Assembly: GCA_020846935.1 (NCBI GenBank)
Contig: JADLCY010000001.1
Location: 1 to 64,000 of the forward strand
Source of the DNA: Gemmatimonadaceae bacterium
Lineage (GTDB): Bacteria; Gemmatimonadota; Gemmatimonadetes; Gemmatimonadales; Gemmatimonadaceae
Direction of reading: 5' to 3'
Length of the DNA: 64,000 nucleotides
A model generated the notes under the pieces. That model saw only the letters and a list, made by a program, of their open reading frames with translations, was not told where the DNA came from and ran no database searches. Position 1 is the first letter of the stretch, and each line of letters begins with the position of its first letter. This document shows, one piece after another, positions 7,734 to 56,637 of the stretch. Position numbers and translations under genes: made by a program.

Positions 7734-8828
7734 TTACCCGCGGAGCAGCGTGAGCACGTTCTGGCCAGCGGCGTTCGCCTGGGCGAGCATCGCGGTACCG
7801 GCCTGCTGCAGGATCTGGTTCTTCGAGAAGGTCGTCATCTCCGCCGCCATGTCGAGGTCACGGATCGTGCTCTCGGCGGCCGAGAAGTTCTGCACCGAGG
7901 TGCGGACGTTTTCCGTGGCGATCTCGATACGGCTCTGGAGCGCACCGATGACACCGATGGCGACGTTGGCGTTGGTGATGGCCGTGTCGATCTGCGAGAG
8001 CGCGGTCTGCGCGTTCGCCAGGGTCGTCGGGTCCGCGGTGACCGACAGGCTTGCCGACGTCAGGTTGAGCTGCGAGCCCGTGATGGTGATCGCGTCATTG
8101 CCGGAGTACTGGCCCGACGCGGACACGAGGAACGTACCCGAGCCGCCACCGACGGTGACGTTGCCCGCCAGGGTGGCCGCACCGACGGCCGACGTCGTGT
8201 CGACGGTGATACCGAGCGAGGTGAAGTTGAGCGTCTGCTTGGTCGCCGCCGTGACGCCGAGGGTCTGCGACACCGACCCGTTGGAGAGCGTGACGACGCT
8301 ACCGCCTGACGACAGCGTGTAGGCACCCGTCGACGCGCCCGACAGCTTGATGTCGTAGACGCCGGTGGTGGTGGCCAGCGCGGTCGAAGCGCTGTCGATC
8401 GTCGCGCCGAAGGCACCGTTGAGCAGCGTGTTGCCCTGGAACTTCACGGTGGCGACGGTACGGTCGATTTCGTTGCGGAGCGCCTGGTACTCGTTGGTGA
8501 TGCGGGCGCGGCCGGCCGAGTCGACGCTGTCCGACGCCGCCTGGGCGGCGAGTTCCTTCATGCGCTCGAGCATCTTCTGGATCGTGCCCGTCGCGCCTTC
8601 GGCGATACCCAGCACCGAGTTCGCCTGCTCCGAGTTGCGGGCCGCCTGGCCGAGCGCACGGATGTCCGCGCGAAGGACGTTGGCGATACCCAGACCGGCA
8701 GCGTCGTCTGCAGCACGAGTGATGCGGAAGCCCGAGGACAGCTTGGCCATGGACTTCGAGACATCATCGTTCACGCGGGTGAGGTTCCCGTGGGCGCGCA
8801 GCGCGCTGACGTTCGTGTTGATCCTCAT
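7734..8828 (-). CDS. fliC: flagellin
   Basis: A 364-residue filament subunit. The N-terminal D0/D1 helices (MRINTNVSALRAHGNL, LSSGFRITRAADDAAGLGIA) and the C-terminal D1/D0 helices (ENVRTSVQNFSAAESTIRDLD and a QAGTAMLAQANAAGQNVL tail) are conserved. A variable Ser/Thr/Gly-rich centre at about 140-270 is exposed on the filament and offers many possible O-glycosylation sites, which fits the glycosyltransferase genes upstream. Monocistronic, with its own FliA-type promoter and a structured leader. It is the only flagellin gene in the window. Confidence 0.97.
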   Translation of the reverse strand: MRINTNVSALRAHGNLTRVNDDVSKSMAKLSSGFRITRAADDAAGLGIANVLRADIRALGQAARNSEQANSVLGIAEGATGTIQKMLERMKELAAQAASDSVDSAGRARITNEYQALRNEIDRTVATVKFQGNTLLNGAFGATIDSASTALATTTGVYDIKLSGASTGAYTLSSGGSVVTLSNGSVSQTLGVTAATKQTLNFTSLGITVDTTSAVGAATLAGNVTVGGGSGTFLVSASGQYSGNDAITITGSQLNLTSASLSVTADPTTLANAQTALSQIDTAITNANVAIGVIGALQSRIEIATENVRTSVQNFSAAESTIRDLDMAAEMTTFSKNQILQQAGTAMLAQANAAGQNVLTLLRG

Positions 8829-8835
8829 GATGGTG

Positions 8836-8870
8836 CTCCTTGGGTGTTGGGTCGGGGAATCCGTTCCCCG
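8836..8870 (-). promoter_or_regulatory. flagellin mRNA leader: GGA-loop hairpin plus GGA in Shine-Dalgarno (probable CsrA sites)
   Basis: On the transcript, CGGGGAA and TTCCCCG (8853-8870) form a 7-bp stem closing a CGGA tetraloop, and AAGGAG (8836-8841) is the Shine-Dalgarno 7 bases before the ATG. CsrA binds GGA in hairpin loops and blocks ribosomes at a second GGA in the Shine-Dalgarno. The two GGAs lie about 22 bases apart, as in leaders bridged by one CsrA dimer. Confidence 0.6.
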
Positions 8871-8910
8871 TCGAGCGCCGGGCGTTAGTGCCGGTGCCCT
8901 CCACGAGCCT

Positions 8911-8938
8911 GTATCGGACGGTGGCGGCCGGGACTTTA
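8911..8938 (-). promoter_or_regulatory. FliA (sigma-28) promoter of flagellin
   Basis: On the minus strand: TAAA (8935-8938), 16 bases, TCCGATAC (8911-8918). It is the best match in the window to TAAA-N15-GCCGATAA; counted as TAAA-N15-GTCCGATA the spacing is exact. The predicted leader is about 75 bases. Confidence 0.75.
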
Positions 8939-8985: not shown

Positions 8986-9813
8986 TCACGCGGCGACCGC
9001 CGGCGCTTCGGGGTGACGGAACAGGAGGTTGAACACCGAGTTCGTCTCGGGCGTCTGGTCGGGCGTGATGCGCTGCACGAACGTGCGACCGGGCTGGAAG
9101 AGGTATGTCTCGTAGCCCTGGTCGGTCATGACGCCGCGCAGCAGGCGCTCGCTCGCGCCCATCGACTCCAGACCAAAGCGATTGACCTCGGCGATCACGA
9201 ATGGCACATGGTGCCGCCTGAGGAGTTGGCGCGCGCCGACGAGGATCGCGAACTCGGCGCCTTCCGCGTCGATCTTGATCGCGCGGAGCCGGCTCATGTC
9301 ACGCTCCGCGAAGAACTGGTCGAGGGACGTGACGAAGACCTTGCGGGTGCGCGGCGGTCCCTGGCGCGACTGTTCATTGAAGGGGTGTCGGCCCACTTCC
9401 CAGAGCGCGTGGCCCCCATCGTTGTCGGCGTTCACGAAGAACTCGGCGATGGCCGGCGTGGCGCCGACCGCCATGTGGATCGGGCGCACGTTGGTGGCGC
9501 CGTTCACCTCGATGTGCTCGAGGAGGTCGGCAAAGTTGTTCGCGTCCGGCTCGAACGAGAACACGGTGCCGGTCGGGCCCACGAGGTGCGAGGCCAGCAT
9601 CGAGAAGTAGCCGACGTGCGCGCCGATGTCGATGAACGTGTCGCCCGGCTGCAGGATCGCGCCGATGAAGTTGCTGGTCTCGGATTCGTAGAGGCGCCCT
9701 TCCGCGAAGTCATTGAGCATGAAGCGCTGACTCATCTGAGTGGCATCGAGCAGGTAGGTCAGCTTGTGCTGTCCACCGGGTGCGGTGAGCGTGAAGGAGA
9801 ACTCGGTCTTCAT
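8986..9813 (-). CDS. FkbM-family SAM-dependent methyltransferase
   Basis: A 275-residue methyltransferase. SAM motif I is DTFIDIGAHVGYFSMLA, the acidic loop is VFSFEPDANNF, and the substrate-side motif is LRAIKIDAEGAEFAIL, all as in FkbM O-methyltransferases. These enzymes usually methylate hydroxyls of sugars or polyketides. It follows the large TPR/glycosyltransferase gene in the flgL operon, so an O-methyl group on a flagellin glycan is the likely product; the acceptor is inferred from context only. Confidence 0.85.
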   Translation of the reverse strand: MKTEFSFTLTAPGGQHKLTYLLDATQMSQRFMLNDFAEGRLYESETSNFIGAILQPGDTFIDIGAHVGYFSMLASHLVGPTGTVFSFEPDANNFADLLEHIEVNGATNVRPIHMAVGATPAIAEFFVNADNDGGHALWEVGRHPFNEQSRQGPPRTRKVFVTSLDQFFAERDMSRLRAIKIDAEGAEFAILVGARQLLRRHHVPFVIAEVNRFGLESMGASERLLRGVMTDQGYETYLFQPGRTFVQRITPDQTPETNSVFNLLFRHPEAPAVAA

Positions 9814-9859
9814 TGGATGAGTGGACGGATGGGCGGTGGGACGAGCGTTCGGATGCGGG

Positions 9860-12800
9860 TCAGCACAGGGGCGTCAGCGCATCGAGCAAGGCGCCGACCT
9901 GATGGTGCCAGGTCCAGCGGGTCATGGCGTCGGCGCCGCGGGCGGCAAGAGCGCACATCGCGGCACGGTCCGTGTAGGCCGTCTCGAGGGCAGCGACGAC
10001 TTCGTCCACATCGGACTCGCCCCAGCCCTCGATGCCGTCGAAGTACCTCGTCGGCCTCGGCGGTTGCAGCTGCGTGGTCAGCGGCTGGCAGCCCCCCGTG
10101 GCCACGAGGTCGAGGTGGCCCGTGTTCGCCGCGAGGATCGTGGGCACGCCGGCGGCCATGCATTCCATGGCCACGAGGTTCGTGCCGCCTTCGGCGCGAT
10201 TGGGGAACAGCGCCACGTCGGCCTCTCGCACGAGCTGACCCATGACCGCATTCGGCTGTCGTCCGACGTCGATCACGTTCATGGCCGGTACGCCGTTGCG
10301 GGCGAGCCATGGCACGAGGTCGAGGCGATCGCCGTTGAGCTGTGGCAGTCCTTCCACGTGGCCGGCGAGGTCGAGGTCGCCGATCAGCTGCGGCCACGCG
10401 TTGTGCCACGCAGCGACGAGGAGGGCGTCCGGGTGCGTGGCCACAAAGCGCCGAAAGGCGGCCACTACGATGTCCTGCCCCTTGCGGTATTCGAGCTTGC
10501 CGCCGGAGAACACCACGAATCGGTCGGCAAAGAGTCCGCTGCGCGGCGCCGGGTGAAAGATCGAGGGATCGATCCCCTGTGGTACGGTGACCACGTGGGC
10601 GATCCCGTTGGCAGCGAGGACCTCGGCGTTCCAGGTGGAGCCGGCGACCAGGAGGTCGAAGCGGGAGGCGATGGCGTCGGCGTCCGTGCCAAGCACCGTG
10701 TCCTCGAAGAACACCACACCGGCGCGGCGTGCGGCAGGTGCGACGAAGCTGTCGGCGCCGGCGAGGCGATTGCCTAACGCGCACAGGACGAGGTCCGGCG
10801 CGGCCGGCGCTGCCGGCGCGAACAGGGGCGCGAGGCGTGCCGCCACCAGGGGCGACACCTCCATCGGCCCCACGGCGCGCACGACCGGAGTCGCCCGACC
10901 ATCCTTGAGCAGTTCGAGCGCGAGGTTGGTGCCATAGATGCCCCAGCCCGTATCGCTGCGCAGCTCCCAGTCGATCCCAACGGTCGGCGACCCGACATCC
11001 GGAACGGCGGCTGGCGCGGGAACGTGAGCCGTCTCGGGCACCTCCTGATGCGGAACCTCGCCCGCGGTGAGCGCCGCGAGCACCATCGGGCTCATGGCGA
11101 CCAGCGCGCCGCTACCGCCGTCGGTCCATGGGTCCAGCGTGACCTCGCCGTCGACCGTCGAGAGCGCAAAGACGTGCATGCCCTGCTCCATGAACTCACG
11201 CACACCCGCGACGCTCGATGTCGTGTCGCACACGACCACGTCGGCGATGGCCGCGCCCGCGGCGAACAGCGCGCGAAGCGTGCCCACGTCGGTGTCAGCG
11301 AGCCGCACCACGAGCCGCCCGTCGGCGGGGAGCGCCGTCGCGGCACTCACCGACGAGTACGCCGACCATCGCGCGGCCGGCGCCCTGCGGGAGACCATGG
11401 CACCGATGCGCGCGGTCGCTCCATGCTCGCCAACGATCCGCAGCGAGCACACCGACGACGCTGCCACGTCGACACTCACGAGGCCGAGCCCCGGGGCAGC
11501 GTCCACGAGAGCGTCGCCCGGCTGGAGCAGGTCGACCAGGAACGCGCGCACCTCGGCATGGGCCGCACGCCCGGTGAGTTCGGCCTCGTATTCGGCGAAC
11601 ATGCGCTCGTCGGCGAGTTCAGCCAGGGGAACCCACACGTCGAACGGCCGGCCGTCGCGCACGTGCGTCGAGGTAACCGTGACGATGTCGATGGGGGCAG
11701 CGGCGGCTGCAGCCGCCGGCACACGCTCCGTCGCCACCTTCGCGAGTTCGCGCTCCACCTCGGCGAACACCGAGGCCCAGTCGCGAGGTGTCGGTTGCCT
11801 GAAGAGCCGCATGGAGGGATACCACGGCGAGTCCGTGCGATCGAGCATCCAGCGGAAGTCCGGCACGTGAGGCAAGAGCAGCCAGGTCGGGACGCCGAGC
11901 GCCCCGGCGAGGTGCGCCACCGACGTGTCGACGGTGATCACGAGGTCGAGCGCCTGGATCGCGGCTGCCGTGTCCCTGAAGTCGACGAGCCCCGGTGCGA
12001 GATCTTCGATGGTACGACCGGGCAGCTGGGCGAGTTGCCGTTCGGGCTCGGCGCCCTTCTGCAACGAGAAGAAGGCGGTGCCTGGAACCCGCGCGAGGTC
12101 AGCGAAGGCGGTCAGTGGCGCCGAGCGCAGGAAGTCGCGCGCATGACCCGGATTCCCTGCCCAGACGATGCCGACCTTGAGTCGATCCGGCGGTGCGGCG
12201 ACGAGCGCTGACGTCGCGCGCGGCTCCACATCGAGATACGGGATGTCCGCGGGGACGGTCTCGATGGTGGTGCCGACGAGGCCGGGCAGCGACATGAGGT
12301 TGGCGTGGACATCGTATCTGGGCAGCGCGGCGCCACGCGCGACCACCGCGTCCACCCCGCGTGCGGCCGCGAGCAGTGGCACGATGGGGAACGGCGCTTC
12401 CACCACGACGCGGCCGGCGCCGCGGTCCTTGAGCACGGGCGCGTAGCGAACGAACTGGATCGCGTCGCCAATCCCCTGCTCGGAGTGCAGAAGGATCGTG
12501 CGGCCGTCGAGCGGATCGCCCTGCCATGCATTCGGGCCGTAGTCGCCGTGATCGAACACCACGGACTGGAGGCGCTTGCGCCATTCGAACTGCGGCCAGC
12601 CGCGTACGAAGTCGCCCTGGAGGAGCCACAGGAGGGCGAGGTTCCAGTTCGCGTTGCGATTCTCCGGATCCGTCGATCGCACGCGTTCGTACAACGCCTC
12701 GGCCTCGGCGAAGTTGCCGGACTCCATGGCGACGTTGGCGAGCAGGTTCCAGGACTCGGCGTAGCCGGGATCGGCGTCGATGGCGCGCTGGGCCCAATGT

Positions 12801-13504
12801 CGCACGCGGTCATGTTCGCCGGTGCGCTCGAAGACCGAGGCGAAGTTTGCGAGGATCGCCGCGTTGTCGGGGGCGACGGTGATCGCCCGTTCGAACGCGC
12901 GCGTGGCGTCGTCGTAGCGGCGCGCTTCCTTGAGCACGACGCCGAGGTTGCTGAGGGCATTCAGGTGCGATGGATCGAGCTCGACGGCGCGTGCGAGCGA
13001 GCGGATCGCCTCGGCCTCCTCGCGCATCCCGCGCAGCGCGATGCCGCGATTGCTCCAGACGTCCGCGTCGTCGGGCGAGAGGGCGATCGCGCGATCGAAC
13101 GCGGCGACCGCATCGGGAAAGCGGAACAGCTCGATCAGCGTGTTGCCGTGATTGTTGTGCCACCCGGCGCGCCCGGGTTCGAGCGCGGTGGCGCGTTCGA
13201 AGCATCGATTGGCCTCGTCGTGGTCGCCGCCTTCGGCGAGGAGGATGCCCAGGTTGTTGAGGGCCTCGCCGTAGTCGGGCTCGACGCTGGTCGCGCGCCG
13301 AAAGAGCGCTTCGGCTTCGGCGCGTTGGCCACGCGCGGCGAGGATGGCGCCGAGGTTATTGGCCGCGGCGGTATGCGAGGGGTCGTCGTCGAGCGCCTGG
13401 CGATAGAGGTCGGCGGCGACCGCAGTGTGACCGGCGAGGTGCTGCTGCACCGCCCGGTCGAAAGCCGCGTCGCTGGTCCGCGGCGAGTGGGCGGTCTTTG
13501 TCAT
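9860..13504 (-). CDS. multidomain TPR / glycosyltransferase protein, probable flagellin glycosylation
   Basis: A 1214-residue composite protein. Residues ~10-290 are about eight tetratricopeptide repeats (for example YGEALNNLGILLAEGGDHDEA). Residues ~310-590 resemble a GT9/GT41-type GT-B fold (EQGIGDAIQFVRYAP near 343, DTSVAHLAGALGVPTW near 525). Residues ~635-840 look like a degraded FkbM-like domain (LLQPGDALVDAAPGLGL) without a clear SAM motif. Residues ~841-1214 are a GT4-type glycosyltransferase (VTVPQGIDPSIFHP, then EGGTNLVAMECMAAGVPTIL). The TPR part would hold the protein acceptor. It begins 2 bases after the fliW stop and shares the flgL operon. No signal peptide, so cytoplasmic. Confidence 0.85.
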   Translation of the reverse strand: MTKTAHSPRTSDAAFDRAVQQHLAGHTAVAADLYRQALDDDPSHTAAANNLGAILAARGQRAEAEALFRRATSVEPDYGEALNNLGILLAEGGDHDEANRCFERATALEPGRAGWHNNHGNTLIELFRFPDAVAAFDRAIALSPDDADVWSNRGIALRGMREEAEAIRSLARAVELDPSHLNALSNLGVVLKEARRYDDATRAFERAITVAPDNAAILANFASVFERTGEHDRVRHWAQRAIDADPGYAESWNLLANVAMESGNFAEAEALYERVRSTDPENRNANWNLALLWLLQGDFVRGWPQFEWRKRLQSVVFDHGDYGPNAWQGDPLDGRTILLHSEQGIGDAIQFVRYAPVLKDRGAGRVVVEAPFPIVPLLAAARGVDAVVARGAALPRYDVHANLMSLPGLVGTTIETVPADIPYLDVEPRATSALVAAPPDRLKVGIVWAGNPGHARDFLRSAPLTAFADLARVPGTAFFSLQKGAEPERQLAQLPGRTIEDLAPGLVDFRDTAAAIQALDLVITVDTSVAHLAGALGVPTWLLLPHVPDFRWMLDRTDSPWYPSMRLFRQPTPRDWASVFAEVERELAKVATERVPAAAAAAAPIDIVTVTSTHVRDGRPFDVWVPLAELADERMFAEYEAELTGRAAHAEVRAFLVDLLQPGDALVDAAPGLGLVSVDVAASSVCSLRIVGEHGATARIGAMVSRRAPAARWSAYSSVSAATALPADGRLVVRLADTDVGTLRALFAAGAAIADVVVCDTTSSVAGVREFMEQGMHVFALSTVDGEVTLDPWTDGGSGALVAMSPMVLAALTAGEVPHQEVPETAHVPAPAAVPDVGSPTVGIDWELRSDTGWGIYGTNLALELLKDGRATPVVRAVGPMEVSPLVAARLAPLFAPAAPAAPDLVLCALGNRLAGADSFVAPAARRAGVVFFEDTVLGTDADAIASRFDLLVAGSTWNAEVLAANGIAHVVTVPQGIDPSIFHPAPRSGLFADRFVVFSGGKLEYRKGQDIVVAAFRRFVATHPDALLVAAWHNAWPQLIGDLDLAGHVEGLPQLNGDRLDLVPWLARNGVPAMNVIDVGRQPNAVMGQLVREADVALFPNRAEGGTNLVAMECMAAGVPTILAANTGHLDLVATGGCQPLTTQLQPPRPTRYFDGIEGWGESDVDEVVAALETAYTDRAAMCALAARGADAMTRWTWHHQVGALLDALTPLC

Positions 13505-13505
13505 G

Positions 13506-13955
13506 CTAGAGCGCGAAGGCTTCGCGCATGCTGAATCCGTCGTCGGTGCGAATCGACTGATGCGCCTGGCCGAGTCGGGCGTTGAAGAGCAGGGGCGCGT
13601 GCAGGTTGGCGGTGCACGGCTGTCCGGCCTCGCCCATGGTCACGATCGAGAGGACGAGGATGTCTTCACCGCTGCCGGTGCCGAGGCGTGCCTTGTCGGC
13701 GTCGCCGAGTTCCAGGTGATAGTGCGGGAAGACGGGGAACGGATCGACGAGCAGGAAGACGAGCGCCGAGTGTTCGACCGACTGGAGCCAGAAGAGCCCC
13801 TCGCGCGGTGTGGGGAGGAGCGCAAAGCGGCGCGCCTCGGGAAAGCCGTAGAGTCCCTCGCTGAACTCGACGACCTGGTCGCTCGGCACCGGGAGCGTGC
13901 CGAGCAGTTCGGAGTGCACGGGAAGGACGGAGGGTTCCACGGTGCTCGCGGTCAT
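13506..13955 (-). CDS. fliW: FliW, flagellar assembly factor and CsrA antagonist
   Basis: A 149-residue FliW. Typical segments are VVEFSEGLYGFPEARRFAL, FWLQSVEHSALVFLLVDPF and the late CTANLHAPLLFNARLGQAHQ. FliW binds either flagellin or CsrA; when flagellin is secreted, freed FliW removes CsrA from the flagellin mRNA. Its ATG overlaps the flgL stop (ATGA), a common pairing. csrA is encoded near 56.4 kb and the flagellin leader has matching GGA sites. Confidence 0.95.
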   Translation of the reverse strand: MTASTVEPSVLPVHSELLGTLPVPSDQVVEFSEGLYGFPEARRFALLPTPREGLFWLQSVEHSALVFLLVDPFPVFPHYHLELGDADKARLGTGSGEDILVLSIVTMGEAGQPCTANLHAPLLFNARLGQAHQSIRTDDGFSMREAFAL

Positions 13956-14833
13956 CGGAGGTACTCGGTGAGGTTCATGCCCATGACGCGTGAGGTGGCG
14001 AGCATGGCGGCCTGGTAGGCGGTCTGGCGGCTCACGAGGTCGGAGACGGCCTTCTCGAGGTCGGCCTCCTGCAGGTTGGACTTGAAGGTGCGGAGCGAGG
14101 TGTCGAGGGCGCGCAGGTTGGACGTGGCCACTTCGAGCTGCGCCGCCTGGGTGCCTGACTCGCCGATGAGGACCTGGACGTTGGCGTGGCCCGCGTCGAG
14201 GGCAAAGATCGACTGCCGGATCGCCGGGGCGTCATCATTGCCTAACGCGGTGGACACCTGGTCGATCGCCGCCAGAACGCCGGTGGTGAGGAAGACGTCG
14301 GTGGCGTTGTGCGTGGCGCGCACGTACATGCCTGACGAAATCTCGGCGCGTCGGAAGCCCGTGGGCGGCGTGGTCGTGAACGGCGGGGTGGTCGTCTGGA
14401 GCGGTGCGACGTTGCTCTGGTCACCGCCAAAGAGGAACTCGCCCTCATGCACCTGGTTGGCCAGTTGGAGGGCCTGCTGCATCAGGTGGTCGACTTCGGC
14501 CTTGGCAATGAGGCGGGTCTGCGCGCTGGCGGTCGACGTACCCTGACTCACGGCGAGTTCCTTGACGCGCTCGAGGATCTGCGTGAGCGAGTTGAGCGAC
14601 TGTTCCTCGACCGCGATGCGGGCCGATGCCGAGTTGATGTTGCGCTGGTACTGATCGATCGCACGGAGCGAAGCGCCGGAACTGACGATGCTGCTTGCGG
14701 CCGACGGATCGTCGCTCGCGACTTCGACGCGGAGCCCACTCGTGACGCGCTGCTGGGCGTCGTCCATCGCGCGGAGCGACTTCTGAAGTGCGTGGAGCGA
14801 GTTGCCGGTCGTGATGTGGTTGGTGATGCGCAT
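13952..14833 (-). CDS. flgL: FlgL, hook-filament junction protein (HAP3)
   Basis: A 293-residue flagellin-like protein. N-terminal helix MRITNHITTGNSLHALQKSL, then VTSGLRVEVASDDPSAA, parallels flagellin D0/D1; the C-terminus SDLVSRQTAYQAAMLATSRV is typical of FlgL. It joins the filament to FlgK at the hook. The chosen ATG gives the standard N-terminus; the longer reading frame runs through the intergenic promoter. First gene of flgL-fliW-glycosyltransferase-FkbM. Confidence 0.93.
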   Translation of the reverse strand: MRITNHITTGNSLHALQKSLRAMDDAQQRVTSGLRVEVASDDPSAASSIVSSGASLRAIDQYQRNINSASARIAVEEQSLNSLTQILERVKELAVSQGTSTASAQTRLIAKAEVDHLMQQALQLANQVHEGEFLFGGDQSNVAPLQTTTPPFTTTPPTGFRRAEISSGMYVRATHNATDVFLTTGVLAAIDQVSTALGNDDAPAIRQSIFALDAGHANVQVLIGESGTQAAQLEVATSNLRALDTSLRTFKSNLQEADLEKAVSDLVSRQTAYQAAMLATSRVMGMNLTEYLR

Positions 14834-14910
14834 GCACCCGTCCGAGGAGGAAGGATCGCCGGCAGGGCGGAAGAAGTTGCCTATCCCGTCCGTGGGGCGT
14901 CTCCTCGGCA

Positions 14911-14938
14911 GTATCGGCGGGGTTTTTCGGTCCTGAAC
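14911..14938 (-). promoter_or_regulatory. FliA-type promoter of the flgL operon
   Basis: GCCGATAC on the minus strand (14911-14918), identical to the flgM minus-10. The minus-35 position (GTTC at 14935-14938) is poor, so strength is uncertain. It lies in the 136-base gap between the divergent flgL and response regulator genes. Confidence 0.45.
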
Positions 14939-14969
14939 CCTCGGCACCCTTTTCCGCACGGCACCGCGA

Positions 14970-16403
14970 ATGGCGACGATCCTGTACGTGGACGACGAAC
15001 CCTCGGTCGGCCTGGTCCTCGAGGACACGCTGACGCAGGCCGGGCACCGGGCAATCGGAGCCCAGCACGTCGTCGAAGCCCTGCAGGTTCTGTCGAGGGA
15101 GACGATCGACCTGATCATCTCCGACTATCGGATGCCCGGGCTGACGGGGCTGGAGTTTCTGAACCTGCTCCAGCGCGAGGGCTATGACATTCCGCTGATC
15201 ATGGTGACCGGCTACGCATCCATTGAGCACGCGGTGTCGGCGATCAAGGCCGGGGCAATCGACTACATCACCAAGCCGATTCGCACCCAGCAGCTGGAGC
15301 TGGCGGTTGAGCAGGCGCTGGAGTACGTGCGGCTGCGTCGCGAGAACGAATCACTCCGTCGGGAGGTGATGGAGTTCCGCAACGAGAGGGCGATCGTGGG
15401 CGAAGCGCCCGCGATCCGCCGGATCCAGCAGACCATCGCGATGGTGGCGCCGACGCGTGCGACCGTGCTGCTGCAGGGGGAGAGCGGCACGGGCAAGGAG
15501 TTGTTTGCCCGCGCGATCCACGATCAGAGCGATCGCCGTGACAAGCCGTTCATCAAGCTGAACTGCGCCGCGCTGCCGGAGGGCCTGATCGAAAGCGCGC
15601 TGTTCGGCCACGAGCGTGGAGCGTTCACCGGCGCGGTGAAGCGCGTGGAGGGGGCATTCGAGCGCGCGAACGGCGGGACACTGCTGCTCGACGAGATCTC
15701 GGAAATGAAGCTCGAGCTGCAGGCGAAGCTGCTGCGAGTGCTGCAGGAGCAGGAGTTCGAGCGCGTGGGCGGCACGAACCCGATCCGCGTGGACGTGCGC
15801 GTGATTGCGACCACCAACCGGCATCTGGCCGACTATGCCGCGGCGGGTGCCTTCCGCCAGGACCTCTACTATAGACTGAGCGTGGTGCCGGTCGAGATCC
15901 CTGCCCTGCGGGAGCGCCCGGACGATATCCCGATGTTGGCCTATCGCTTTGCGCTGCGGACGGCGGCGGACGTGGGCAAGGAGGTCACGGGGATTGCGCC
16001 AGACGCGCTGCAGATGCTGCAGAGTTATCCCTGGCCCGGGAACGTTCGGGAGTTGCAGCACGCGGTGGAGCGTGCGGTGATCCTGACGCACGACAAGACG
16101 CTGCAGGCGCACCTGTTCGACCAGCAGCGTCAGGGGAGTCTGCAGTCGCTGGTGCAGCAGGTGATGCAGCGCGCGACGCCGACGACGCTGGCCGCGCTGA
16201 ACTTCGGGCCGAGCCAGCCGCCGGACGGGATCGTGCTGGCCACGTTGAATGTGGACGAGGCGGAGCGTGCGCTGATCAAGCGGGCGCTGGAGATGACGGG
16301 CGGCAATCGCACGCGCACGGCGGAGCTGTTAGGCATCTCGGTGCGGACGTTGCGGAACAAGCTGAACGGGCCGCAGCGTGCGGAGGCGGCGGTCGAGTCA
16401 TAG
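14970..16403 (+). CDS. NtrC-type sigma-54 response regulator, probable flagellar master regulator (FlrC/FleR-like)
   Basis: A 477-residue regulator. Receiver domain 1-120 with D8/D9, phospho-acceptor D52 (IISDYRMPG) and lysine in ITKPI. AAA+ domain ~140-375: Walker A GESGTGKE, intact GAFTGA loop that contacts sigma-54, Walker B LLLDEI, and arginine fingers in FRQDLYYRL. C-terminal Fis-type helix-turn-helix NRTRTAELLGISVRTLRNKL. Sigma-54-like elements precede flgB, fliL and flgF, so it is the natural activator of the class II operons. Its histidine kinase is not in the window. Confidence 0.9.
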   Translation: MATILYVDDEPSVGLVLEDTLTQAGHRAIGAQHVVEALQVLSRETIDLIISDYRMPGLTGLEFLNLLQREGYDIPLIMVTGYASIEHAVSAIKAGAIDYITKPIRTQQLELAVEQALEYVRLRRENESLRREVMEFRNERAIVGEAPAIRRIQQTIAMVAPTRATVLLQGESGTGKELFARAIHDQSDRRDKPFIKLNCAALPEGLIESALFGHERGAFTGAVKRVEGAFERANGGTLLLDEISEMKLELQAKLLRVLQEQEFERVGGTNPIRVDVRVIATTNRHLADYAAAGAFRQDLYYRLSVVPVEIPALRERPDDIPMLAYRFALRTAADVGKEVTGIAPDALQMLQSYPWPGNVRELQHAVERAVILTHDKTLQAHLFDQQRQGSLQSLVQQVMQRATPTTLAALNFGPSQPPDGIVLATLNVDEAERALIKRALEMTGGNRTRTAELLGISVRTLRNKLNGPQRAEAAVES

Positions 16404-54408: not shown

Positions 54409-54947
54409 ACGCGATCGTCCATCCCCCGACGCCGCTCACGCCGGCACAGCAGGCACAGCGGACGACGTTCGTCAACGGACTCACCGATGCGCTCCGCAGC
54501 GAACGTCGCCTGATCGATGAGCTGGTGACCGCGATGCACCAACAGCGAGAGGCCGTGGCCGCCGACGACCTCGCGTCGATCGACGACTCGGTCTTTGCCG
54601 TGCAGCGCATCCTCCTCACGCTCGGCGAGGCGCGCAAGCGTCGTCGAACGCTCAACGAGCGCCTCGGCCAGCCCGGGGACCTGCCCTTGCGCGACCTCAT
54701 CGCCGCGCTCGGCCCCTCGGCAACCGAAGAGCTGCGGGTCGCGCGCGATGACCTTCAGGTCGCTGCCCAGCGCCTGGCGCGTGACGTGGCGACCAACCGC
54801 CAGATCCTGCGCGAGGCGCTGGCGACGGGCGAAGAGACCGTGCGGTCGCTCGCAGGCGCGGCGGCACCGCGCGTGGGCTATGGGGAGAAGGTCGGCGCCA
54901 ACACCGGTGCGCAGCACGCGTCGTACCTCGTGAACCGGCGGGCCTAG
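54405..54947 (+). CDS. flgN: FlgN, chaperone of FlgK and FlgL
   Basis: A 180-residue, fully helical protein (LTDALRSERRLIDELVTAMHQQREAVAADD, LGEARKRRRTLNERLG) in the usual place before flgK. It holds hook-associated proteins for export. GTG start overlaps the flgJ stop; its stop overlaps the flgK GTG. Confidence 0.85.
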   Translation: MNAIVHPPTPLTPAQQAQRTTFVNGLTDALRSERRLIDELVTAMHQQREAVAADDLASIDDSVFAVQRILLTLGEARKRRRTLNERLGQPGDLPLRDLIAALGPSATEELRVARDDLQVAAQRLARDVATNRQILREALATGEETVRSLAGAAAPRVGYGEKVGANTGAQHASYLVNRRA

Positions 54948-56407
54948 TGTCGACCTTCGGCAGCATCCTCAGCATCGCGCGCGGCGCGATCGCGTCGCAC
55001 CAGGCCGCGATCCAGACCACGTCGCACAACCTCGCCAATGCCGAAACCGAGGGGTTCTCGCGGCAGCGCGTGGAGCTGGTGCCGTCCACACCGCAACGAT
55101 TCCCCTTCTACAGCATCGGGACCGGCGTGTCCATCTCGGACATCGTCCGGTATCGCGATCAGCTGCTGGACAACACGTACCGCCGGGAGGTCGGAAACAG
55201 CGAGGCCTTTTCGCTGCGACGCGACCTGATGTCCGAGATCGAGTCGGTGCTCGGCGAGCCAAGCGACACCGGACTCGCCGCCACGCTCGACGAGTTCTGG
55301 AATGCGTGGGCCGACCTGTCGAACAATCCCGGCAACGGCGCCGCCCAGGGTGTCGTTCGCCAGCGCGGTGCGCAGGCGGCGTACATGCTCAATACGTTCG
55401 CCACCCAGTTGGCGGACCTGGGCAACCGCACGCGTTCGCGCATGTCCGACACCGTCGACCAGATCAACGGGCTCGCCCAGCAGGTGGCCACGCTGAATCG
55501 CCAGATCACGGCCGCCGAGGTGGGGGGTCAGCAGGCGCCCGACCTGCGCGACCAGCGCGATCGCCTGGCCGACCAGCTCGCAAAGCTCACCGGCGCCCGC
55601 ACGGAGCCGCAGGCCAACGGGACGGTGGGGGTGCACCTCGGGACGATGATGCTCGTCGACGCGGCAAACGCGCGTACCCTCGAAGCACGCGGCGGCACGC
55701 AGGTCTCGCTCGGCATGAAGGGCGATCCTGATCCGCTGGTGGGTGTGACCGGCCCCCTCGCGGCGATGGTCGACTTCATCAACACCGATCTGCCCTCCGT
55801 CACCGGACGCCTCGACCAGCTCGCCCGGGCGCTCGTGAACGGAGTGAACGAATACCACATGAGCGGGTGGACCGCCGCCGGTGACGCGTTAGGCAATTCC
55901 AACTGGGTGCCGGCCAACGGACCGACCGGCTCGCGCGTCGCCTTCTTCGATCCGGCGTTCGTGAGCGCCGGCACCATCCGACTGTCCTCGGCAGTAGTGG
56001 CGAATGCCGCCGTGATCGCCTCGGGCGACGTGCAGAACGCGCCGGGGAACAATACCATCGCGCTTGCGGTCGCTGCCCTTCGCAACGACACCGGCGTGGA
56101 CGCGCTGCGCACGCGCATGGGTGCAGCGTTCGCCACGCAGGTCGGCCTCGCCACCGACACGTCGTACCTCGACCACTACACCCAGGTCGTCACCGATGTC
56201 GGGGTCTCGGTCGACGAGTCCGGCAACCAGTTCGCCATCTACGACACGCTCGCGCGCCAGGCCGATACGCGCCGAGCGTCGGTGAGCGGCGTCTCCATCG
56301 ACGAGGAGCTGACGCTCCTCATGCGGCACCAGCAGGCCTACGCGGCGGCCGCGAAGCTCGTGAAGGCAGCCGACGAGATGGCGCAGGTCATCCTGGGGAT
56401 GGTCTAG
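54947..56407 (+). CDS. flgK: FlgK, hook-filament junction protein (HAP1)
   Basis: A 486-residue protein: FGSILSIARGAIASHQAAIQTTSHNLANAETEGFSRQR-type N-terminus (D0), DEFWNAWADLSNNPGN, DQINGLAQQVATLNRQI and C-terminal SGVSIDEELTLLMRHQQAYAAAAKLVKAADEM. First of two junction zones at the hook tip; FlgL is encoded at 14 kb. GTG start. Confidence 0.96.
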   Translation: MSTFGSILSIARGAIASHQAAIQTTSHNLANAETEGFSRQRVELVPSTPQRFPFYSIGTGVSISDIVRYRDQLLDNTYRREVGNSEAFSLRRDLMSEIESVLGEPSDTGLAATLDEFWNAWADLSNNPGNGAAQGVVRQRGAQAAYMLNTFATQLADLGNRTRSRMSDTVDQINGLAQQVATLNRQITAAEVGGQQAPDLRDQRDRLADQLAKLTGARTEPQANGTVGVHLGTMMLVDAANARTLEARGGTQVSLGMKGDPDPLVGVTGPLAAMVDFINTDLPSVTGRLDQLARALVNGVNEYHMSGWTAAGDALGNSNWVPANGPTGSRVAFFDPAFVSAGTIRLSSAVVANAAVIASGDVQNAPGNNTIALAVAALRNDTGVDALRTRMGAAFATQVGLATDTSYLDHYTQVVTDVGVSVDESGNQFAIYDTLARQADTRRASVSGVSIDEELTLLMRHQQAYAAAAKLVKAADEMAQVILGMV

Positions 56408-56409
56408 CG

Positions 56410-56637
56410 ATGCTCATCCTCAGTCGGAAACCCGGTGACGCGGTCCTCATCGCGGGCGGGATTCGCATCGTCGTGCTGGCCTCCGACCGGCGCGGCGTTC
56501 GCATCGGCATCGAGGCGCCGCCGCACGTGAACATCGTGCGCGAGGAAATCGTGGCACAGGTGGCGGACGCCAACCGCAGCGCCACGGCTGGCGCGGACGC
56601 GAGGGCGCTGGTCGGCGGCGTCAAGTCCACCGGGTAA
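56410..56637 (+). CDS. csrA: CsrA, translational repressor
   Basis: A 75-residue CsrA: MLILSRKPGDAVLIAGGIRIVVLASDRRGVRIGIEAPPHVNIVREEI, with R6 and the VREEI end of the RNA-binding surface present. It dimerises and blocks translation of target mRNAs at GGA sites, here probably flagellin. The C-terminal extension with FliW-contact residues is longer than in E. coli CsrA (61), as in FliW-regulated CsrA proteins. Placed 2 bases after flgK. Confidence 0.95.
   Translation: MLILSRKPGDAVLIAGGIRIVVLASDRRGVRIGIEAPPHVNIVREEIVAQVADANRSATAGADARALVGGVKSTG

Follow-up and report, generated by a model that had tools for sequence, protein, structure and literature searches.

Flagellin, fliW and csrA in the window

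The window, i.e. the complete 64 kb stretch of DNA analysed here, belongs to the 4.5 Mb genome of a member of the Gemmatimonadota and contains a flagellin gene, fliW and csrA (Table 1). Relatives of the flagellin at 78-93% identity are found in Gemmatimonadota MAGs, and the genome possesses one flagellin besides FlgL. The initial annotation had placed fliW at 13.5 kb and csrA at 56.4 kb; Pfam confirms both, each as a single copy in the genome. The start of fliW overlaps the stop of flgL by 4 bp. In many relatives (L062, L067, L068, L072, L077 and similar) fliW immediately precedes the flagellin gene in the same orientation, while the fliW of the window follows flgL. The region between the flagellin gene and fliW (8986-13504, minus strand) encodes an FkbM-type methyltransferase together with a TPR-glycosyltransferase protein of 1214 aa and may represent a flagellin glycosylation island.

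Table 1. Features of the flagellin leader and of the associated flagellar and regulatory genes in the window.
Feature	Position	Strand	Remarks
SL1, 7-bp hairpin CGGGGAA-CGGA-TTCCCCG	8853..8870	-	CsrA core A-N-G-G-A in loop; proposed high-affinity CsrA site
Shine-Dalgarno (SD) AAGGAG with second GGA (8839-8837)	8836..8841	-	proposed second CsrA site; would block the ribosome
Flagellin gene, 364 aa	7734..8828	-	proposed regulated target; PF00669 E 6e-34, PF00700 E 4e-22
Sigma-28-type promoter TAAAGT-N14-TCCGATA	8912..8938	-	predicted; -35 8938-8933, -10 8918-8912
fliW, 149 aa	13506..13955	-	CsrA antagonist and flagellin binder by homology; PF02623 E 4e-29
flgL	13952..15118	-	upstream neighbour of fliW; TIGR02550 above cut-off
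csrA, 75 aa, with C-terminal extension	56410..56637	+	PF02599 E 2e-18; L4, R6, R44, V51 and N55 kept
flgK	54947..56407	+	directly upstream of csrA, 2-nt gap

On the minus strand the leader reads ...GCTCGA CGGGGAA CGGA TTCCCCG ACCCAACACCC AAGGAG CACCATC ATG. The hairpin with GGA in its tetraloop that the initial annotation had described is present as SL1, with seven perfect pairs between the arms 8870-8864 and 8859-8853, the loop at 8863-8860 and a folding energy, taken alone, of -10.1 kcal/mol. Read as a hexaloop it presents A-C-G-G-A-U, with the GGA at 8862-8860, and thus has the form ANGGAN preferred by CsrA/RsmE, for which hexaloops of high affinity are reported (PMC4894983). The second GGA, noted there at about 22 bases away, indeed lies within the Shine-Dalgarno sequence, 23 nt from the first (start to start) and upstream of the flagellin ATG at 8828. 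When both strands of the 64 kb were scanned for GGA-tetraloop hairpins, SL1 was the only one with 7 Watson-Crick pairs; four others reach 6. Taken as a whole, the 131-nt region has an unremarkable fold energy (z -0.05), so the evidence for SL1 is local and comparative and does not concern global stability. No Watson-Crick pairs (0) surround the SD of this leader, which thereby lacks the second hairpin of the Campylobacter type, and tRNA is the only Rfam family detected in the window.

The predicted sigma-28-type promoter is situated about 30 nt upstream of SL1 and places the transcript start near 8904, giving a predicted leader of about 76 nt. At a score of at least 10, such an element occurs in 85 of 106 leaders of the phylum (shuffled: 2/106). 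A transcription start inside the hairpin, which the initial annotation had named as a case that would speak against the circuit, is unlikely because of this conserved predicted promoter. In a fold from the estimated start (8829-8904, minus strand), the 5' end of the leader, GGCTC, is able to pair with GGAGC of the SD region; since part of the SD is paired here, its access may depend on structure as well, and the pairing may add a further level of SD control in the species of the window.

Conservation of the leader hairpin among Gemmatimonadota

Of the 110 Gemmatimonadota flagellin leaders read, 103 possess a hairpin with a GGA hexaloop and 4 or more Watson-Crick pairs, and 108 possess one with 3 or more; the former occurs in 1.5% of dinucleotide shuffles and in 2.9% of random windows taken from these loci. 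A strict definition by the CGGA tetraloop missed 46 of the 110, since the A-N pair that closes the loop is open in many leaders, and was dropped in favour of the hexaloop definition.

The stem covaries strongly. An alignment with 75 leaders, in which identity was thinned to less than about 80%, shows changes on both sides in 6 of the 7 pairs. Double-change cells number 117, compared to 29.8 after shuffling and at most 12 when the partner is slid by 1-3 columns, the shuffle counts not being probabilities because related leaders are not independent. The comparison of relatives for stem covariation, proposed along with the initial annotation, has hence been carried out with a positive outcome. 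RNAalifold recovers the stem unaided (5 pairs). The A-N-G-G-A of the loop is invariant; its GGA was a selection criterion for the leaders, but the first A, two bases before GGA, was not selected for and is invariant nevertheless. A further hairpin upstream, lacking GGA and noticed by eye, found no support from RNAalifold on 92 aligned leaders.

The spacing between the two GGA motifs has a median of 24 nt in the phylum (middle half 23-25). Both this value and the 23 nt of the window fall inside the range of 10-63 nt that one CsrA dimer can bridge (PMC7652899). Among 107 leaders of the phylum, 59 have the SD itself in a hexaloop closed by 3 or more pairs, with a covariation of 0.33 (0.15 shuffled, 0.10-0.17 in slid registers). 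These 59 leaders, unlike the leader of the window, possess the SL1-SL2 layout of Campylobacter flaA. Four leaders of one family, f5, namely L129 (G187), L135 (G288), L137 (G189) and L115 (G211), contain two tandem GGA-loop hairpins before the flagellin SD, e.g. GGAGCAAGGACGCTCC-A-GGAGCAAGGACGCTCC, and therefore three potential CsrA sites.

Occurrence and predicted targets of CsrA

The CsrA of the window retains V51 and N55, which belong to the residues in contact with FliW (PMC7829508); the RNA-binding residue R44, V51 or I51, and N55 are found in 19 of 20 CsrAs read from the phylum. CsrA and FliW are homologues, by sequence, of the Geobacillus CsrA-FliW complex 5dmb, with FliW matching its counterpart in the solved structure at E 3e-16. 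Both proteins pass the Pfam cut-offs and stay below the NCBIfam equivalog cut-offs (CsrA, TIGR00202: 58.4 vs 70.1 bits; FliW: 113 vs 165).

A survey of 395 Gemmatimonadota genomes yields flagellin in 100, FliW in 97 and CsrA in 102. All three are present in 94 of the 105 genomes that possess any of them, several exceptions being incomplete assemblies, and all three are missing from the other 290. This three-way co-occurrence indicates that CsrA in Gemmatimonadota goes with the flagellar filament. The leader of one flagellin-like gene (L186), from a genome without FliW and CsrA (G248), has no GGA hairpin; the gene may be a contaminant or diverged.

A covariance model built from the 75 leaders matches the flagellin leader in the genome of the window at E 1.3e-8, a score flattered by the inclusion of this very leader in the model. 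The next match is at E 1.27, and no second site of comparable strength was detected in this genome-wide scan. Across the phylum, matches better than E 1e-5 are flagellin leaders with two exceptions: the leader of a lipoprotein-like gene in a genome that lacks CsrA (G283), and, right at the threshold, the leader of a small protein in f11, the deepest family. Several of the weak matches (E > 1e-3) in other genomes stem from genomes without CsrA and are taken as chance. The predominance of flagellin leaders among the matches is a sign that flagellin may be the main, perhaps the only, strong target of CsrA, which is compatible with weaker or differently shaped targets.

The small-protein leaders of f11, L235 (G003:C7:4584-4644) and L233 (G007:C109:21958-22017), have the same layout as the flagellin leaders, ACGGGCACGGATGCCCGG followed by ATCACGGAGGAT, and precede a protein of 76-79 aa without Pfam or NCBIfam match. 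Both genomes have two CsrA genes. This leader is a possible second CsrA target.

Somewhat short of even odds, and thus tentatively, Gemmatimonadota CsrA could be a dedicated flagellin repressor instead of a global regulator. Each genome would then contain practically a single strong mRNA target, and CsrA would be retained or lost jointly with FliW and flagellin. If so, it would represent a living example of the original, flagellar role that has been proposed for CsrA. Because CsrA, FliW and flagellin nearly always occur jointly and there is a single strong site per genome, the hypothesis of a flagellar origin of CsrA regulation can be tested directly, in a simple system with one target.

The proposed circuit and its relation to known systems

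The leader is best explained as the site at which CsrA acts in a flagellin homeostasis circuit, the flagellin-FliW-CsrA module, with a probability of about 0.88. Hairpin conservation, covariation, the promoter, co-occurrence and site uniqueness make it very likely that the circuit is this known module, and as nearly all flagellated relatives in the phylum keep the hairpin, flagellin output in these is very probably throttled by the CsrA-FliW feedback already described for Bacillus and Campylobacter. From the parts, residues, spacing, covariation, co-occurrence and uniqueness of the site that are observed, we infer binding, repression and partner switching by FliW as follows. Sigma-28 would produce a flagellin transcript whose leader measures about 76 nt. 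A single CsrA dimer would hold the SL1 loop, ANGGAN, at high affinity and bridge to the GGA of the SD, some 23 nt further downstream, so that the ribosome is kept away. FliW would bind CsrA near V51/N55 and thereby release the mRNA. Unexported flagellin would in turn bind FliW, leaving CsrA free to stop translation, until flagellin export frees FliW and translation restarts.

CsrA might also repress the flagellin leader and be relieved by another antagonist, a small RNA or a protein, in place of the partner switch between FliW and flagellin. Three flagellated genomes with CsrA in which FliW was not seen (G278, G011 and G319) would fit such relief, but they are MAGs of only 86-91% completeness; FliW, flagellin and CsrA otherwise co-occur or are jointly absent, CsrA keeps V51/I51 and N55, and tRNA is the sole known RNA family within the window, all of which renders another antagonist improbable. 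Considerably less probable still is a role of SL1 independent of CsrA, as a stabiliser of the mRNA 5' end or an RNA switch of SD access. The stem is stable and the SD of some species also resides in a short hairpin, yet the stem sequence varies freely around a fixed A-N-G-G-A, a loop that a plain stabiliser does not need, and the flagellin-like leader of G248, whose genome is devoid of FliW and CsrA, has no hairpin. That SL1 is a chance hairpin in a G+C-rich leader would agree with the average fold energy of the whole leader; phylum-wide conservation and covariation refute this, leaving it a negligible probability.

For the flagellin homeostasis circuit, the closest experimentally proven relative is flaA of Campylobacter jejuni, a diderm with a CsrA-FliW circuit acting on two GGA hexaloops 21 nt apart (PMC4894983), compared to 23 nt in the window. 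Both leaders share ANGGA in a hairpin loop, a second site (proposed here) that overlaps the ribosome-binding site, compensatory changes in the stems of related leaders, transcription by sigma-28 (predicted here) and a fliW that is not adjacent to csrA. In contrast to C. jejuni, the SD site of the genome of the window is outside a hairpin (inside one in many relatives), the leader is longer (about 76 nt as predicted vs 45 nt), and only the flagellin leader scores strongly, whereas C. jejuni CsrA has other targets. The Hag-FliW-CsrA system of Bacillus subtilis (PMC6529632, PMC7652899), with which the initial annotation had drawn a parallel, likewise combines two CsrA sites in the leader (candidates here), one of them over the SD, with FliW as antagonist and N55 in CsrA. 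The stress on a distant diderm lineage carries less weight, the circuit being already proven in the diderm C. jejuni, which is nearer than B. subtilis hag. B. subtilis is furthermore monoderm, with fliW and csrA adjacent in one operon, while the genes here are split into flgL-fliW and flgK-csrA.

The glgC leader of Escherichia coli (PMC7652899) also has a high-affinity GGA in a hairpin loop and an SD GGA bridged by one dimer, as proposed here, but its target is not flagellin and its antagonists are the small RNAs CsrB/C, without FliW. In the diderm Geobacter sulfurreducens (PMC13407953) FliW binds CsrA through N55, as is probable here; that system was studied for biofilm and not for a flagellin leader.

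Our literature search found no published study on a flagellin-FliW-CsrA circuit in Gemmatimonadota. As far as this search shows, the circuit is new for the phylum and the module itself already known; the finding is well supported but hardly unexpected, because its nearest proven relative, C. jejuni, is a diderm too. A translational feedback loop proven elsewhere is extended by it to Gemmatimonadota, with comparative support at the level of base pairs. GGA hairpins are also present in flagellin leaders of a few Armatimonadetes, Symbiobacteriaceae, Dethiobacter, Riflebacteria and Lachnospiraceae (eight leaders from outside Gemmatimonadota were read), in agreement with the conservation of the module in deep branches (PMC6529632).
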